Positions 4,002 through 9,698 of a DNA stretch of 36,641 nt are shown in pieces. A program made the translations under genes and the position numbers. The stretch is taken from positions 1 to 36,641 of the IMG/VR virus record IMGVR_UViG_3300030451_001097. One strand, written 5' to 3'. Each line of letters begins with the position of its first letter. The first letter of the stretch is position 1. The stretch comes from a virus. The notes under the pieces are model-generated. The model had not been told where the DNA came from. It was given only the letters and a program-made list of their open reading frames with translations, and searched no databases.

Positions 4002-4032
4002 TTTGGTAGTTAATTTCAATTTTATACTTTTG
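4002..4032 (+). promoter_or_regulatory. Strong Bacteroidetes-type promoter for the replication operon
   Basis: TTTG at 4002-4005, exactly 19 bases, then TACTTTTG at 4025-4032. This is a full match to TTTG-N19-TAnnTTTG. The ATG of the first operon gene lies 27 bases downstream, behind an A-rich leader. Confidence 0.8.
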
Positions 4033-4490: not shown

Positions 4491-4744
4491 TGAATGATGA
4501 CTTGTTAGATTATTTGTTAGATGGTAAGCCATGCGAGATAACTTTATTTCAAATGGCTACCATTGAAACAAGAATACACAGGTCAGCCTTACCACTAGAT
4601 GAACAACAAGAAATCTTAAATAAATTACCAACTTATACTGAATTAGAAGCAGAAGAGGTTATACTATATATTTTAGAGAACCAAGTACCTAGCGACCCTA
4701 AAGACCAATATAAACAGATGGTAAGAAATGGTATGTTTAAATGA
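4490..4744 (+). CDS. Hypothetical early protein with a GTG start
   Basis: 84 residues, acidic and mostly helical by composition. The start is GTG at 4490, overlapping the previous TAG stop by one base. The next in-frame ATG would remove about 21 residues that look as well ordered as the rest. No known family is recognised. It overlaps the downstream HTH gene by four bases (ATGA), so it is part of the replication operon. Confidence 0.6.
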   Translation: MNDDLLDYLLDGKPCEITLFQMATIETRIHRSALPLDEQQEILNKLPTYTELEAEEVILYILENQVPSDPKDQYKQMVRNGMFK

Positions 4745-4983
4745 CAAAAAAATATAAATTCCAACAGATAAGAGAAGCTCATAATGAGTTTGAAGCATTT
4801 TTAAGAATTAAAGGAATGTCTACTAGACAGTTTTCTTTTTTACTTGATATAAGCGAAGTAACTGCTAGAAGATATATTTTAGACACTACCTTATTAAGAT
4901 ACTATCACATGAAAATTATATCCGACCACTTTAATATGAGTGTAAAAGATGTAATAGATATAATAGAATACGATTTAAAATAA
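4741..4983 (+). CDS. Small helix-turn-helix DNA-binding protein
   Basis: 80 residues. Residues about 25-60 read as a helix-turn-helix (MSTRQFSFLLDISEVTARRYI), as in XRE-like regulators, with a second helical part (KIISDHFNMSVKDVIDIIEY). No other domain is present. It overlaps the upstream gene by four bases. It may be an early regulator or a DNA-binding accessory of replication. The target site is unknown. Confidence 0.65.
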   Translation: MTKKYKFQQIREAHNEFEAFLRIKGMSTRQFSFLLDISEVTARRYILDTTLLRYYHMKIISDHFNMSVKDVIDIIEYDLK

Positions 4984-4989
4984 TAAAAC

Positions 4990-5424
4990 ATGAACAATAA
5001 AAGAAAACTAAAGTTTAGTAGTTACTTTCACGATGTAATTATTAGAGAATTAGAAAACAAATTTAATGTAAAAGAAGATGAAATATTTTTAGGTTCAAGA
5101 AAGAAAAACTTTATACAAGCTAAACGTATGTATATATTTGTACTTAGAACAATATTTGATTTGTCTTTAGAAGAGATTGGTGGTATAACTAATCTGCATC
5201 ATGCATCTGTCCTGTATCATTATAGGCAAGTAGAGTTTTTCTACAAAACTTATATAACTGATTCAGAAACTTATAAAACAATTTTAAGTAAGATAGATAG
5301 TGTAACATTAGATGAGAAGATTGATGCTCTGGAAAAACAAAACAGAGTAAACAATTTAGAATTAACCAAATTATATAACTTAAAAAAACAAAGAAATGAA
5401 AAAAGAGAAAAATTATTTGCCTAG
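4990..5424 (+). CDS. DnaA domain IV-like DNA-binding protein without an ATPase
   Basis: 144 residues. Residues about 18-80 follow the pattern of the C-terminal DNA-binding domain of DnaA: AKRMYIFVLRTIFDLSLEEIG, then a signature helix HHASVLYHYRQVE matching the D-H-A/S-T-V-x-Y-x-x-x-x-V-E form. No Walker motif or AAA+ region is present. The last 40 residues form a charged coiled-coil-like helix. Stand-alone domain IV proteins could bind DnaA boxes to recruit or block host DnaA. It sits in the replication operon and overlaps the next gene by 29 bases. Confidence 0.75.
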   Translation: MNNKRKLKFSSYFHDVIIRELENKFNVKEDEIFLGSRKKNFIQAKRMYIFVLRTIFDLSLEEIGGITNLHHASVLYHYRQVEFFYKTYITDSETYKTILSKIDSVTLDEKIDALEKQNRVNNLELTKLYNLKKQRNEKREKLFA

Positions 5425-5725: not shown

Positions 5726-6382
5726 ATGAAAGAGAAACCAAGTTACTATGCTATAATATCTGCAGAGGTCAGATATGATAAAAAATTATCAGCCAATGCG
5801 AAACTGTTGTATGGTGAGATTACTTGCCTAACAAATGAGAATGGTTTTTGCTTTGCAACTAACAAGTATTTTGCTGACCTTTATGAGAAGAGTAAAGTAA
5901 CGATTTCTAAATGGATAAGCGAATTAGTGGTAAATGGTTATGTATCAACAAGTTACACTTATAAAGAAGGTACTAAAGAAATTGATAAGAGGTATATAAG
6001 TATTCTTAAAGGGGGTATTAAAGAAAACTTAAAGGGGGGTATTAAAGAAAACTTAAAGGATAATAATACAAGTATTAATAATACAAGTATAATAAAAGAA
6101 AAAATAATAAAAAGAAAAAATTTTATTGTTCCTTTAGTTAGTGAGATAGAAGACTATTGTCGTTTAAGGGATAATGGAATTAGTGCAGAGCAGTTCTATG
6201 ATTTTTATCAGAGCAAAGGTTGGATGGTTGGTAAGACTAAGATGAAAGATTGGAAAGCTGCTATTAGAAATTGGGAGAGAAACCGAAAAAAAGATGTAAA
6301 GGGCATGAGCAAAATACATTCTCATTTACAAAAGAACATAAATGTTAAACAAAAATTAAAAAATAAATATGAAATTAATTAA
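5726..6382 (+). CDS. Replication initiation protein (helix-turn-helix, replisome-organizer type)
   Basis: 218 residues. Residues 1-95 form a winged-helix/HTH_36-like domain (YYAIISAEVRYDKKLSANAKLLYGEI, ATNKYFADLYEKSKVTISKWI, VNGYVST). A low-complexity linker (residues about 96-125) contains GGIKENLK twice and NNTSI twice. The C-terminal part (VPLVSEIEDYCRLRDNGISAEQFYDFYQSKGWMVGKTKMKDWKAAIRNWER) is typical of phage initiators related to DnaD-like replisome organizers. The linker repeats are exact at DNA level and may be the origin, as in lambda O. It overlaps the next gene by 14 bases. Confidence 0.8.
   Translation: MKEKPSYYAIISAEVRYDKKLSANAKLLYGEITCLTNENGFCFATNKYFADLYEKSKVTISKWISELVVNGYVSTSYTYKEGTKEIDKRYISILKGGIKENLKGGIKENLKDNNTSINNTSIIKEKIIKRKNFIVPLVSEIEDYCRLRDNGISAEQFYDFYQSKGWMVGKTKMKDWKAAIRNWERNRKKDVKGMSKIHSHLQKNINVKQKLKNKYEIN
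6011..6058 (+). repeat. Tandem 2 x 24-bp perfect repeat in the initiator gene
   Basis: 6011-6034 and 6035-6058 are identical 24-mers beginning GGGGGTATTAAAG, in frame as GGIKENLK twice, with a partial flank on the left. Together with the adjacent 15-bp repeat and an A/T-rich tract, this resembles the iteron plus unwinding-region layout of origins that lie inside initiator genes. Confidence 0.9.
6061..6090 (+). repeat. Tandem 2 x 15-bp perfect repeat next to the 24-bp repeats
   Basis: TAATAATACAAGTAT occurs at 6061-6075 and again at 6076-6090, encoding NNTSI twice. It is followed by an almost pure A/T tract (about 6091-6125) that could be a DNA unwinding element. Two different exact tandem repeats side by side in one linker is unlikely to be a protein requirement alone. 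Confidence 0.9.
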
Positions 6383-7422: not shown

Positions 7423-7632
7423 ATGCCTAAAATTAGAAAGATAAAAACATCAGACAGAAAAGATAGCAGAGGTGGTGGTTATGCTAAAAGAAAGTTTACT
7501 TTTGAAGAAGCAGAAGCAATAAGAGAAGAATATAAAAGAGAAGGGGGGAGTATATCGGGGGTAGCCCGAAAATACAATGTATCTCAACCACTTATGTACC
7601 AACTTATCAAAGGTACAACTTATAATGAATAA
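7423..7632 (+). CDS. Small helix-turn-helix protein (resolvase-type HTH)
   Basis: 69 residues. A basic flexible N-terminus (PKIRKIKTSDRKDSRGGGYAK) is followed by a clear HTH: FEEAEAIREEYKREGGSISGVARKYNVSQPLMYQLIKG, as in HTH_7/resolvase C-terminal domains. No catalytic domain accompanies it, so it is a stand-alone DNA-binding protein, perhaps an early regulator. Two G runs (6 and 5 G) sit inside the gene near 7543-7560. It overlaps the nuclease gene by eight bases. Confidence 0.7.
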   Translation: MPKIRKIKTSDRKDSRGGGYAKRKFTFEEAEAIREEYKREGGSISGVARKYNVSQPLMYQLIKGTTYNE

Positions 7633-7972
7633 AGAAGCAACTGTACAATCTTCTTTTTGTACATATATTAAGTTGCAATACCCAAATCTTAGATACTGTG
7701 CCAGTTTAGGTGGCATAAGAACATCAATGAAACAAGCAATATTAGCTAAGAAGACTGGCTATGTTAAGGGTTTCCCTGATATGCAAATACTAAAAACAAA
7801 TAAACAATATGCAGGACTCTTTATAGAAATAAAAGCAGATAAGAAATGCTATCCAACTAAACATCAAAAAGAATGGATAGAAGATTTAAACGAACTTGGT
7901 TACTATGCTGTTGTTTGTAAAGGTCTTGATGAGTGCATTGAAACTTTAGAGTGGTACATGAAACTGCTGTGA
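7625..7972 (+). CDS. VRR-NUC domain nuclease
   Basis: 115 residues from ATG 7625, an upstream extension being unlikely because this ATG couples to the previous stop. The PD-(D/E)xK nuclease pattern is visible: an E near residue 4, G49-F-P-D52, E68-I-K70, then Q81-x-x-W84. This fits the minimal viral VRR-NUC family, structure-selective nucleases thought to act on branched DNA such as Holliday junctions. The last codons contain two GAAACTGC repeats spaced by 11 bases (7960-7978), the second lying across the stop codon. Confidence 0.88.
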   Translation: MNKEATVQSSFCTYIKLQYPNLRYCASLGGIRTSMKQAILAKKTGYVKGFPDMQILKTNKQYAGLFIEIKADKKCYPTKHQKEWIEDLNELGYYAVVCKGLDECIETLEWYMKLL

Positions 7973-7978
7973 AACTGC
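7960..7978 (+). repeat. Two GAAACTGC iterons, 11-bp period
   Basis: GAAACTGC starts at 7960 and 7971, so the copies face the same way one helical turn apart. They straddle the VRR-NUC stop codon and lie 116 bp ahead of the 8.1-kb promoter. The same pair arrangement recurs ahead of the 9.65-kb promoter. Confidence 0.8.
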
Positions 7979-8086
7979 TAGGTATTTTGAATAGTGCATT
8001 TTGACTAAAATTTTCTTAAACAACTAAAAACTAAGTAGTTATATTTTGCGACAAATTGTCTTATTAACATTTTTTTAAAATTAATG

Positions 8087-8116
8087 TTGATTATTAAATA
8101 TTTTTTTATACATTTG
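8087..8116 (+). promoter_or_regulatory. Early promoter P8.1 with composite upstream region
   Basis: TTG (8087-8089), 19 bases, TACATTTG (8109-8116); the ATG lies 29 bases further on. Upstream, in order, are ATTTTGAC (7998-8005), the dyad GACAA-A-TTGTC (8050-8060) and TTAACATTTTTTT (8064-8076), all shared with the promoter at 9.65 kb apart from the dyad's right arm. This marks co-regulation of the two small-gene operons. Confidence 0.75.
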
Positions 8117-8144
8117 TCAAAAAAAACAATTAAAAACAATTAAT

Positions 8145-8423
8145 ATGTATAACTACGAACAACATTTTAAAGACATGGTAAGCAATTGCTGTGGTGATAG
8201 TATGGAAGAGCTACAAGAGTTTTGCTATGTATGTGATACAAGAACAAAAAACCCTATAATTGATGGAGGAACGCATTGCAATACTTGTAAAGAAGAGAGA
8301 GATGTGATAGAGAGATACGTTTGCAATTGTTGTAATGAGATATGCGAACCAATAGAAGATTATGAATACGACCAATTACGAATATATGAATTACAAGAAG
8401 CTAAATATGATTGCAGAACTTAA
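8145..8423 (+). CDS. Cysteine-rich early protein, zinc-ribbon-like
   Basis: 92 residues with 13 Cys. Three likely metal clusters are NCC/CYVC near the N-terminus, HCNTC in the middle and YVCNCCNEIC in the second half. Pairs of C-x-x-C spaced by 20-30 residues suggest two zinc ribbons or treble clefs. It is the first gene of the P8.1 operon, so probably made early. A host-takeover or nucleic-acid-binding role is possible but only inferred. It overlaps the next ORF by 17 bases. Confidence 0.6.
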   Translation: MYNYEQHFKDMVSNCCGDSMEELQEFCYVCDTRTKNPIIDGGTHCNTCKEERDVIERYVCNCCNEICEPIEDYEYDQLRIYELQEAKYDCRT

Positions 8424-8628
8424 ACAAAAACAAGAACTAGACAAATTGTATAGACAAAATACAATTGATATGAATAACTATTTTGCATATAGTGGTAAAC
8501 AAGAAAGAAAAAATAGGTTTACAAAAATATTTGAGGAATATAATTTTAATAAAAATATTAGAGTAAATAATGATATGTCAAAATATGTTTTGAAGAAGGA
8601 CAAAAAAAGTTTAACTAAAATTAAATAA
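8407..8628 (+). CDS. Hypothetical small basic protein
   Basis: 73 residues from ATG 8407, chosen over in-frame ATGs at 8362 and 8386 because it gives the shortest overlap with the Cys-rich gene (17 bases). The sequence is rich in Lys, Asn, Tyr and Glu, predicted helical and without a recognisable motif. It is followed after one base by a small membrane protein gene. Nothing indicates its role beyond membership of the early operon. Confidence 0.5.
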   Translation: MIAELKQKQELDKLYRQNTIDMNNYFAYSGKQERKNRFTKIFEEYNFNKNIRVNNDMSKYVLKKDKKSLTKIK

Positions 8629-8629
8629 A

Positions 8630-8770
8630 ATGGAAATTATATTAACAGTATTAATTATTTTAGGTACTTATAGTTTTGGTTTTTTTAGTGGTGTAATAAA
8701 CACAACAGAAACTAAAGAAATACAAAATGAAGATTACAAAAATGATGTAATACACTGGAACAGTAAATAA
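8630..8770 (+). CDS. 46-residue single-span membrane protein
   Basis: ATG 8630 lies one base after the previous stop, inside an A-rich leader. Residues 2-22 are a hydrophobic span (EIILTVLIILGTYSFGFFSG), followed by a polar tail of about 24 residues. An early small membrane protein could be a superinfection-exclusion or host-interaction factor, but no family is recognised. Confidence 0.55.
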   Translation: MEIILTVLIILGTYSFGFFSGVINTTETKEIQNEDYKNDVIHWNSK

Positions 8771-8797
8771 ATTAATAACAAACTAAAAACAATTAAA

Positions 8798-8980
8798 ATG
8801 AAAAAAGAAATATTACTACAAATAGAAATGTTTGATGATGGTTGTATGTCAGCTTACGAATTAGTTAAAAAAATAAAACAAATAATTAAAAATGATAATG
8901 AAAGAGAACAACAAAGAAAAGTATTAAACAATATATTTGATATATATGGTGATGTCTTTGTAAAAAATAATAATAACTAA
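8798..8980 (+). CDS. Hypothetical small helical early protein
   Basis: 60 residues. ATG follows the recurrent leader ACTAAAAACAATTAAA, which supports a real start. It is mostly helical and charged (EILLQIEMFDDGCMSAYELVKKIKQII, EREQQRKVLNNIFDIYGDVF) with an Asn-rich tail. No family is recognised. Confidence 0.55.
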   Translation: MKKEILLQIEMFDDGCMSAYELVKKIKQIIKNDNEREQQRKVLNNIFDIYGDVFVKNNNN

Positions 8981-8994
8981 AAACAAATAACATT

Positions 8995-9081
8995 ATGAGT
9001 AATAAATTAGAAATGGGTACATTTTCTGATACTACTTTAACCTATCTTTTATTCTTTGCAATTCTCTTTGGGGGGTGCTAG
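8995..9081 (+). CDS. 28-residue hydrophobic ORF ending in the G-tract
   Basis: ATG 8995 is preceded by the same recurrent ACTAAAAAC-type leader seen before neighbouring genes, the main reason to call it. The product has a polar N-terminus (MSNKLEMGTFSDTT) and a hydrophobic C-terminus (LTYLLFFAILFGGC). Its last codons and stop lie inside the first G runs of the G-rich element. It may be a tiny membrane peptide, a leader peptide whose translation affects the G-tract, or the remnant of a longer gene. Confidence 0.35.
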   Translation: MSNKLEMGTFSDTTLTYLLFFAILFGGC

Positions 9082-9105
9082 GGGGATAGGGGGGTGCATG
9101 GGGGG
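9070..9105 (+). repeat. Four-run G tract, G-quadruplex type
   Basis: On the + (coding) strand: G6 (9070-9075), TGCTA, G5 (9081-9085), ATA, G6 (9089-9094), TGCAT, G6 (9100-9105). It can also be read as two imperfect 19-20-bp tandem units, each starting GGGGGGTGC. All loops are five bases or shorter, so it meets the usual G-quadruplex pattern with ample margin, in both DNA and the mRNA. It lies 36 bases ahead of the SH3-like gene. Confidence 0.85.
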
Positions 9106-9141
9106 TATCAACTTAAAAACAATAACTAAAAACTAAAAACT

Positions 9142-9420
9142 ATGAAAACTATAACAACTAACCAAGCTAAACAGCTTATATATAATAATAACTGCAAGAT
9201 ATTTAGTGTAGAGTTTATCAAAAAAGATGGCTCACATAGACTAATGACTGCAAGACTACAAGTGCAAAAAGGTGTTAAGGGTGTTGGGTTGAGGTTTAAT
9301 CCTGATGACCATAACTTAATAACTGCCTTTGATATGCAAAAAGGAGAATTTAGAATGATTAACTGCAATACTTTAGTATCTTTGTCGGCTAATAAGCAAA
9401 AGTATCTTATAAGCGATTAA
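9142..9420 (+). CDS. Early phage protein, SH3-like beta-barrel type
   Basis: 92 residues. The pattern IFSVEFIKKDGSHRLMTARLQV, KGVKGVGLRFNPDDHNLITAFDMQKGEFRMINCNTLVSL matches a family of short all-beta phage proteins usually labelled SH3 beta-barrel fold-containing, as I recall it. The biochemical role is not known. The leader is the recurrent ACTAAAAACTAAAAACT before ATG. It is the last gene of this operon: a clear terminator starts 22 bases after its stop. Confidence 0.7.
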   Translation: MKTITTNQAKQLIYNNNCKIFSVEFIKKDGSHRLMTARLQVQKGVKGVGLRFNPDDHNLITAFDMQKGEFRMINCNTLVSLSANKQKYLISD

Positions 9421-9442
9421 AATACTTGTGTTAATACTAATT

Positions 9443-9472
9443 AAGAGCATATATTATTTATGCTCTTTTTTT
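9443..9472 (+). terminator. Rho-independent terminator of the first early operon
   Basis: AAGAGCATA (9443-9451) and TATGCTCTT (9459-9467) form a perfect nine-pair stem with a seven-base loop, running into a T stretch. It ends the operon that began at P8.1. Confidence 0.9.
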
Positions 9473-9644
9473 TATTTGTAACTGTTGCGAAACTGCCGCG
9501 AAACTGCCGAAACTGCTACGAAACTGCTAGAAATGTTGTGGCTGACCTTAAAAAATTTTGACCCCCCTCTAGTGTCTAATCTAGTAACTTGTTAAATGTC
9601 AATATATTACATGACAAATTTACATGATATTTTTTAACATTTTT
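9473..9644. promoter_or_regulatory. Non-coding regulatory region with iterons between two early operons
   Basis: Apart from short chance ORFs there is no gene between 9421 and 9698. The region holds the terminator, then four GAAACTGC copies (9489-9527), ATTTTGAC followed by a C run (9555-9567), TCTAGT twice (12-bp period, around 9569-9586), GACAAATT (9613-9620), TTAACATTTTTTTT (9634-9647) and a promoter. The order of elements repeats that seen before P8.1. Confidence 0.6.
9489..9527 (+). repeat. Cluster of four GAAACTGC iterons
   Basis: Identical octamers start at 9489, 9500, 9509 and 9520 (spacing 11, 9 and 11), all in the same direction, each preceded by C and outside any gene. Helical phasing and the non-coding position point to a protein-binding array, for a regulator, an initiator or a packaging protein. 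Confidence 0.85.
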
Positions 9645-9675
9645 TTTGTTGTTTTGTCAAAAAGTTATATATTTG
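9645..9675 (+). promoter_or_regulatory. Early promoter P9.65
   Basis: TTTG (9645-9648), exactly 19 bases, TATATTTG (9668-9675). This is a full consensus match, 24 bases ahead of ATG 9699. The leader AATTAAAAACAATTAAAA is nearly the same as at P8.1. Confidence 0.82.
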
Positions 9676-9698
9676 TATCAAATTAAAAACAATTAAAA

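Follow-up and report, generated by a model that had tools for sequence, protein, structure and literature searches.

What purpose is served by the short head-to-tail repeats that precede two operon promoters in the genome of an uncultivated phage? We addressed this question for IMG/VR record IMGVR_UViG_3300030451_001097, whose entire 36,641 bases were analysed and are referred to as the window. The record looks complete (319-bp direct terminal repeat), has a G+C content of 30% and carries genes, promoters and A-rich leaders of Bacteroidetes type; its host is probably of the same type, as deduced from these signals alone. An earlier reading of the sequence (the original prediction) had described a duplicated early control region built on GAAACTGC repeats, or iterons. 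We found that each of the two regions represents a copy of the same conserved two-part cis-element, whose iterons follow a cluster of G-runs at a distance of about 400 bp. We tentatively favor replication initiation as its main function, with the bipartite region overlapping a regulated promoter; transcription control comes close behind. The original prediction had correctly recognized two control-type regions but missed both the G-run cluster and the norm of one array per genome, and a simple promoter reading does not account for a cluster so far upstream. The element, for which we found no earlier annotation, occurs across a large group of uncultivated phages that have Bacteroidetes-type signals. 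It provides an unstudied helix-turn-helix (HTH) family with a concrete candidate DNA target and would predict where these phages begin replication or switch operons.

Iteron arrays and distant G-run clusters

The two copies of the element comprise the following features:

7960-7978, plus strand: iteron array of slot 1, two copies of GAAACTGC (7960-7967 and 7971-7978) at a step of 11 bp
9478-9527, plus strand: slot-2 iteron array, GAAACTGC at 9489, 9500, 9509 and 9520 (steps of 11, 9 and 11 bp), with a fifth, degenerate iteron (GTAACTGT) at 9478
7543-7561, plus strand: G-run cluster 1 (G6, G5), inside the small HTH gene, 398 bp before array 1
9070-9105, plus strand: G-run cluster 2 (G6, G5, G6, G6), located 383 bp ahead of array 2 within the WYL_2 gene leader

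All motifs named in the original prediction were present with the exact letters and positions given there. Exact GAAACTGC arrays occur in the window at 7960-7978 and 9489-9527 only, and the 3' end of the VRR-NUC nuclease gene (stop codon at 7970-7972) and the first slot-1 iteron overlap. Relatives were collected via the Rep protein, the VRR-NUC protein or the DNA pattern; the metagenome contigs are fragmentary, and all counts include related sequences rather than independent events. An array was found in 51 of 51 protein-selected groups (VRR-NUC present, at least 120 bp downstream), at a median of 41 bp past the stop codon and with 2-6 iterons. A motif search in related phages had been suggested, and the iteron array proves to be conserved in position and sequence in relatives chosen without using the repeat. 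The element is common to at least 100 uncultivated phages, and its array comprises overall 2-8 head-to-tail iterons in AT-rich intergenic DNA adjoining replication genes. The extended iteron unit is TGAAACTGCY, with the T before the core present in 92% of copies. Iteron spacing is mostly 11-13 bp in the clade of the window and 17-18 bp in another (clade B), to be compared with one helical turn; the slot-1 mode is 11 bp. Among 23 records, many of 30-38 kb, a single array locus each is the rule, with two loci in the window and in one relative. Loci lacking exact arrays often carry variants at 11 bp, such as five copies of GAAATTGC or four of GTAACTGC. Arrays in L200 and L206 (1549) were discarded as coding repeats (ETAETA). 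A literature search for the repeat returned nothing relevant and no existing annotation of the element, and Rfam and tRNA searches gave no matches.

The G-run pattern was noticed after the fact, while reading the relatives. We defined a cluster as two or more runs of at least five G and considered unique arrays preceded by 1.2 kb or more of sequence (n = 195). Upstream G-run clusters were found at 161 of these arrays, C-run clusters at none (0/195), and shuffled sequences yielded 0. Most of the clusters (142 of 161) fall 300-499 bp before the array. The window itself holds three sense-strand clusters (6011-6039, 7543-7561 and 9070-9105) and no C-run cluster; an RNA G-quadruplex is predicted for 9060-9112. 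Cluster contexts vary between the HTH gene, the VRR-NUC gene and a leader, with median cluster-to-array distances of 396 bp 3' of the HTH gene (72), 415 bp inside it (63) and 496 bp 5' of it (37). These similar distances indicate that the spacing survives changes in gene content. Further, GGG makes up 62-65% of the glycine codons in the tracts (291/469 in HTH tails, 150/230 in the VRR loop) compared with 4-7% of control glycines (42/642 in the RGGG motif, 11/202 in VRR flanks, 19/499 in large open reading frames of the window). This excess points towards selection on nucleotides, and the G-run element is apparently under selection as nucleic acid. Of ten Rep relatives that have neither HTH gene nor array, nine also lack G-run clusters, while L059 has one. 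A nucleotide-level G-run element kept at a fixed distance from a protein-binding array across coding contexts would, if true, be unusual. In clade A HTH genes (e.g. L124, L043), the G-runs encode a Gly/Arg-rich C-terminal tail.

Candidate iteron-binding proteins

Five genes upstream of array 1 encode proteins of interest:

7423-7632, plus strand: 69-amino-acid HTH protein with an invariant RKDxRGGGY arm and one HTH, best candidate iteron binder
7577-7972, plus strand: VRR-NUC nuclease, homologous part from about 7619, always linked to the HTH gene and the array
5726-6382, plus strand: Rep protein with an HTH_36 domain, containing a 24-bp G-rich repeat at 6005-6059
4990-5424, plus strand: DnaA domain-IV-like protein, missing from some array-positive relatives
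4741-4983, plus strand: Cro/CI-type HTH-like protein (HTH4741), weak and below the Pfam cut-off, second candidate binder

Among array-positive groups whose upstream sequence was long enough, the small HTH gene was present in 75 of 75, the VRR-NUC gene in 76 of 76 and HTH4741 in 45 of 45, compared with 62 of 63 for Rep and 42 of 47 for the DnaA-like gene. A single-strand annealing protein co-occurs with the array in 39 of 39 cases and an exonuclease in 30 of 32. A second set was assembled from 80 loci chosen by divergent HTH protein alone, which included 59 distinct genes followed by 400 bp or more of sequence. Within 2 kb downstream, 47 of these 59 genes have an exact array and 50 a relaxed one (expected 0.00 and 0.04). 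The opposite strand gave no arrays (0/59), and the upstream control gave 5-6 of 65, some of them coding repeats. Altogether, the array is present for 185 of 196 distinct HTH genes, and most exceptions sit on short contigs. This linkage suggests that the 69-amino-acid HTH protein binds the iterons.

The original prediction had postulated an unknown iteron-binding protein and had listed the HTH proteins and the DnaA-like protein for testing. Such a binder is indeed probable and the HTH protein at 7423 fits best, while the absence of the DnaA-like protein from 5 of 47 array-positive groups rules it out as universal iteron binder. The HTH_36 Rep is ruled out in the same role by a domain swap in the array-positive relatives L146 and L147. 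There, the Rep proteins share the C-terminal domain, and an unrelated N-terminus without Pfam match replaces HTH_36, i.e. a module swap. No covariation of iteron variants (GTAACTGC, GAAATTGC) with HTH residues was seen, and MLLKGK-type proteins accompany both variants.

A first AlphaFold model of the HTH protein reached a predicted local distance difference test score of 68; a deeper alignment raised this to 78 overall and to 81-91 in the HTH part. Fold searches gave no significant match, the recurrent weak PDB match in Foldseek being ArdK on direct-repeat DNA (E 0.2-0.8). No homologues were found in GTDB species genomes, and cultured phages gave weak partial Staphylococcus phage matches only. 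The family is similar to the DNA-binding portions of phage HNH nucleases and transposases.

Promoters, operators and the relation of the two regions

Downstream of each array, the window carries the signals of the next operon, and array 2 is additionally preceded by a gene and a terminator:

8087-8116, plus strand: promoter 1, TTG at 8087, N19, TACATTTG at 8109, Bacteroidetes -33/-7 type
9645-9675, plus strand: promoter 2, TTTG at 9645, N19, TATATTTG at 9668, Bacteroidetes -33/-7 type
8126-8144, plus strand: A-rich leader before ATG 8145
9682-9698, plus strand: A-rich leader before ATG 9699
8050-8060, plus strand: palindrome GACAAATTGTC (59 bp ahead of the -7 box)
9613-9623, plus strand: degenerate counterpart GACAAATTTAC (55 bp ahead of the -7 box)
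9142-9420, plus strand: WYL_2 family gene, preceding array 2
9443-9473, plus strand: intrinsic terminator between WYL_2 and array 2

Both promoters match the consensus of the Bacteroidetes primary sigma factor (-33 TTTG/TTG, about 19 bp, -7 TAnnTTTG; PMC6847099, PMC9723704), and A-rich leaders are the usual Bacteroidetes translation start context (PMC6847099). Compared with the sigma-ABfr promoter and translation start, which have the same TTTG/TTG-N19-TAnnTTTG and A-rich leader, no unusual feature is seen (PMC6847099, PMC9723704), so promoters and leaders of the window are ordinary Bacteroidetes signals. With promoters of this kind, transcription is expected to start 4-5 bases past the -7 element. 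As had been predicted, the iterons lie upstream of the two promoters, at about 130-140 bp from these sigma-A-type sequences. With the T of the -7 box numbered -12, array 1 spans about -161 to -143 and array 2 about -191 to -153. Both arrays precede operon promoters, and the promoter at 4025 has no array. In relatives, a TTG-N17-21-TAnnTTTG promoter lies 115-160 bp 3' of the array at 29 of 69 slot-1 and 8 of 14 slot-2 loci (expected 0.6 and 0.1). This distance differs by clade (about 130, 145, 179 and 385 bp), and only 3 of 38 in clade B fall within the 115-160 bp range.

Palindromes between array and promoter also recur in relatives. Of those resembling GACAAATTGTC, 28 were found where 1.4 would be expected, and most precede the -7 box by 55-59 bp; 17-bp palindromes resembling TTTAGAATNATTCTAAA numbered 33 against 0.2 expected (e.g. 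L121, L129, L145 and L175) and precede it by 61-62 or 72-73 bp. The 11-bp step between the latter distances is as helical phasing predicts. HTH4741 type and palindrome type show a rough match only. In Bacteroidota genomes, the TTTAGAATNATTCTAAA motif adjoins TonB receptors, hemA, a solute-binding protein and an HmuY-like gene. Judged by these neighbours, it looks like a host Fur-family operator taken up by the phages.

The original prediction regarded the two regions as copies from an ancient duplication and suggested their pairwise alignment. Shared blocks include ATTTTGAC (7998 and 9555), GACAAATT (8050 and 9613) and TTAACAT (8064 and 9634). Local alignment was compared with 1000 dinucleotide shuffles. 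The scores of the whole regions and of the iterons alone were matched by 0 of 1000 shuffles each, and that of promoter plus leader by 1 (strict) or 13 (lenient) of 1000. The stretch from iterons to promoter was not above chance, with 128 (strict) or 358 (lenient) of 1000 shuffles doing as well. In other words, iterons and whole regions are similar beyond chance, whereas the middle blocks are shuffle-like in this pair. That middle stretch is what speaks for chance similarity from A/T richness, a reading whose probability is nevertheless practically negligible and which is refuted for the iterons by their conservation in relatives picked without the repeat. Further, the slots after VRR-NUC and after WYL_2 are each occupied alone in other phages, and together in some. 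Since each slot is used alone elsewhere and the middle stretch aligns at chance level, it is safer to speak of two sites of one kind than of a tandem copy event: a control-type region does occur twice, but descent of the whole region by duplication does not follow. The 11-bp difference in promoter spacing, taken in the original prediction as about one helical turn, is correct for the TTAACAT tract, but relatives conserve GACAAATT(GTC), 59 bp (region 1) or 55 bp (region 2) before the -7 box.

Replication initiation, transcription control and other readings

The replication-initiation reading would account for the single locus per genome, the AT-rich flanks, the location where the replication genes end and the pairing of G-runs with iterons. 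In this scheme, a transcribed G-run cluster would be followed by about 400 bp of whichever genes and then by the iterons in AT-rich intergenic DNA, with one 69-amino-acid HTH monomer held on each iteron. The G-rich transcript of the upstream operon would stay paired with its template as an R-loop, possibly with a G-quadruplex, and the retained RNA could prime DNA synthesis near the HTH-bound array. Operator and housekeeping-sigma promoter of the next operon would overlap the initiation region downstream. That the element exists, is strand-specific, keeps its spacing, is conserved and is linked to the HTH gene has been shown, as have the promoter and operator sequences; HTH binding, R-loop formation and priming are what we infer here. 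The specific version in which G-runs in coding mRNA form a priming R-loop or G-quadruplex about 400 bp before HTH-held iterons, with the distance selected at the nucleotide level even at the cost of imposing GGG glycine codons on proteins, is rather doubtful. G-tract R-loops are known to prime replication at mitochondrial conserved sequence block 2 (CSB 2; PMC5027508). The phage element shares with CSB 2 and R-loop-primed origins an interrupted sense-strand G-run tract at a conserved position near the proposed start of DNA synthesis; it differs in the roughly 400 bp to a repeat array and in a tract that is often coding.

Several observations weigh against replication initiation. GC skew is uninformative as an origin signal because nearly all genes lie on one strand, and the window carries two array copies. 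A promoter follows most arrays, in many cases at a distance typical of the clade and with a phased operator, and a pure origin needs neither. Depending on the definition used, 23-34 of 195 arrays have no G cluster. No RNA G-quadruplex is predicted for 7535-7575, where the slot-1 cluster has two runs only. Finally, the G-rich internal repeats of the Rep gene could themselves be the origin.

Under transcription control, the HTH protein from the replication operon would act on the iterons to activate or silence the next operon's sigma-A-type promoter, in concert with a palindromic operator that precedes the start site by about 60-75 bp. This is quite possible, given promoters far above expectation past the array, operator palindromes at fixed, helically phased distances, arrays before both operon promoters of the window, and the precedent of phage 186 Apl and plasmid ArdK, which regulate promoters from direct repeats. 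The clade-dependent promoter distance argues against it, and the G-run cluster at about 400 bp is left unexplained. Replication origins often overlap promoters, so replication and transcription roles may both hold. It is improbable that the array is instead a cut or recombination site, to which the HTH protein brings VRR-NUC (or terminase) and where G-runs serve the phage exonuclease as a strand-specific stop or Chi-like signal, starting recombination-dependent replication or packaging. Wherever enough sequence is available, array-positive groups all show linkage of HTH gene, VRR-NUC gene and array, even when the order of the two genes swaps, and both the co-occurring annealing protein and exonuclease and the family likeness of the HTH protein fit this idea; however, linkage of genes by itself is no proof of joint action, and the terminase genes are 9-10 kb off. 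Very improbable, in turn, is a classical iteron origin bound by the DnaA-like protein or the HTH_36 Rep as initiator. Both genes are located upstream within one operon and encode DNA-binding domains, and the short direct repeats in AT-rich DNA adjoining replication genes are as in iteron origins of phages and plasmids. Here, however, conservation of the repeats does not extend to the initiator's DNA-binding domain, a DnaA-like protein does not always accompany the array, and a distant G-run cluster occurs at fixed spacing.

Two families of small regulators resemble the array-HTH pair. Phage 186 Apl and lambda Xis-like recombination directionality factors are small phage HTH proteins with head-to-tail direct repeats of 10-11 bp and sites between early promoters (PMC7498355), whereas the present arrays have 9-13 or 17-18 bp spacing, a strict 8-bp core, a distance of 120-400 bp from promoters and a G-run partner; Pfam, PHROGs and PDB searches gave no match of the HTH protein to this group. 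ArdK/KorA repressors (R388, RP4) also place an HTH on direct repeats (PMC9723621), but ArdK operators adjoin the -35 box, and the HTH protein has no significant sequence or fold match to them.

Some further observations concern DNA around these sites. The 24-bp tandem repeat at 6005-6059, which encodes GGIKENLK twice within the Rep gene and is kept in many relatives, is a possible gene-internal origin. Just 3' of array 2, a C6 run at 9562-9567 is one of only three C-runs of at least five in the genome. Directly 3' of the array, many slot-1 relatives (e.g. L031, L032, L172) carry alternating purine-pyrimidine stretches (ACGCACACACGC, GTGTGTGCGTG) that are absent in the window.

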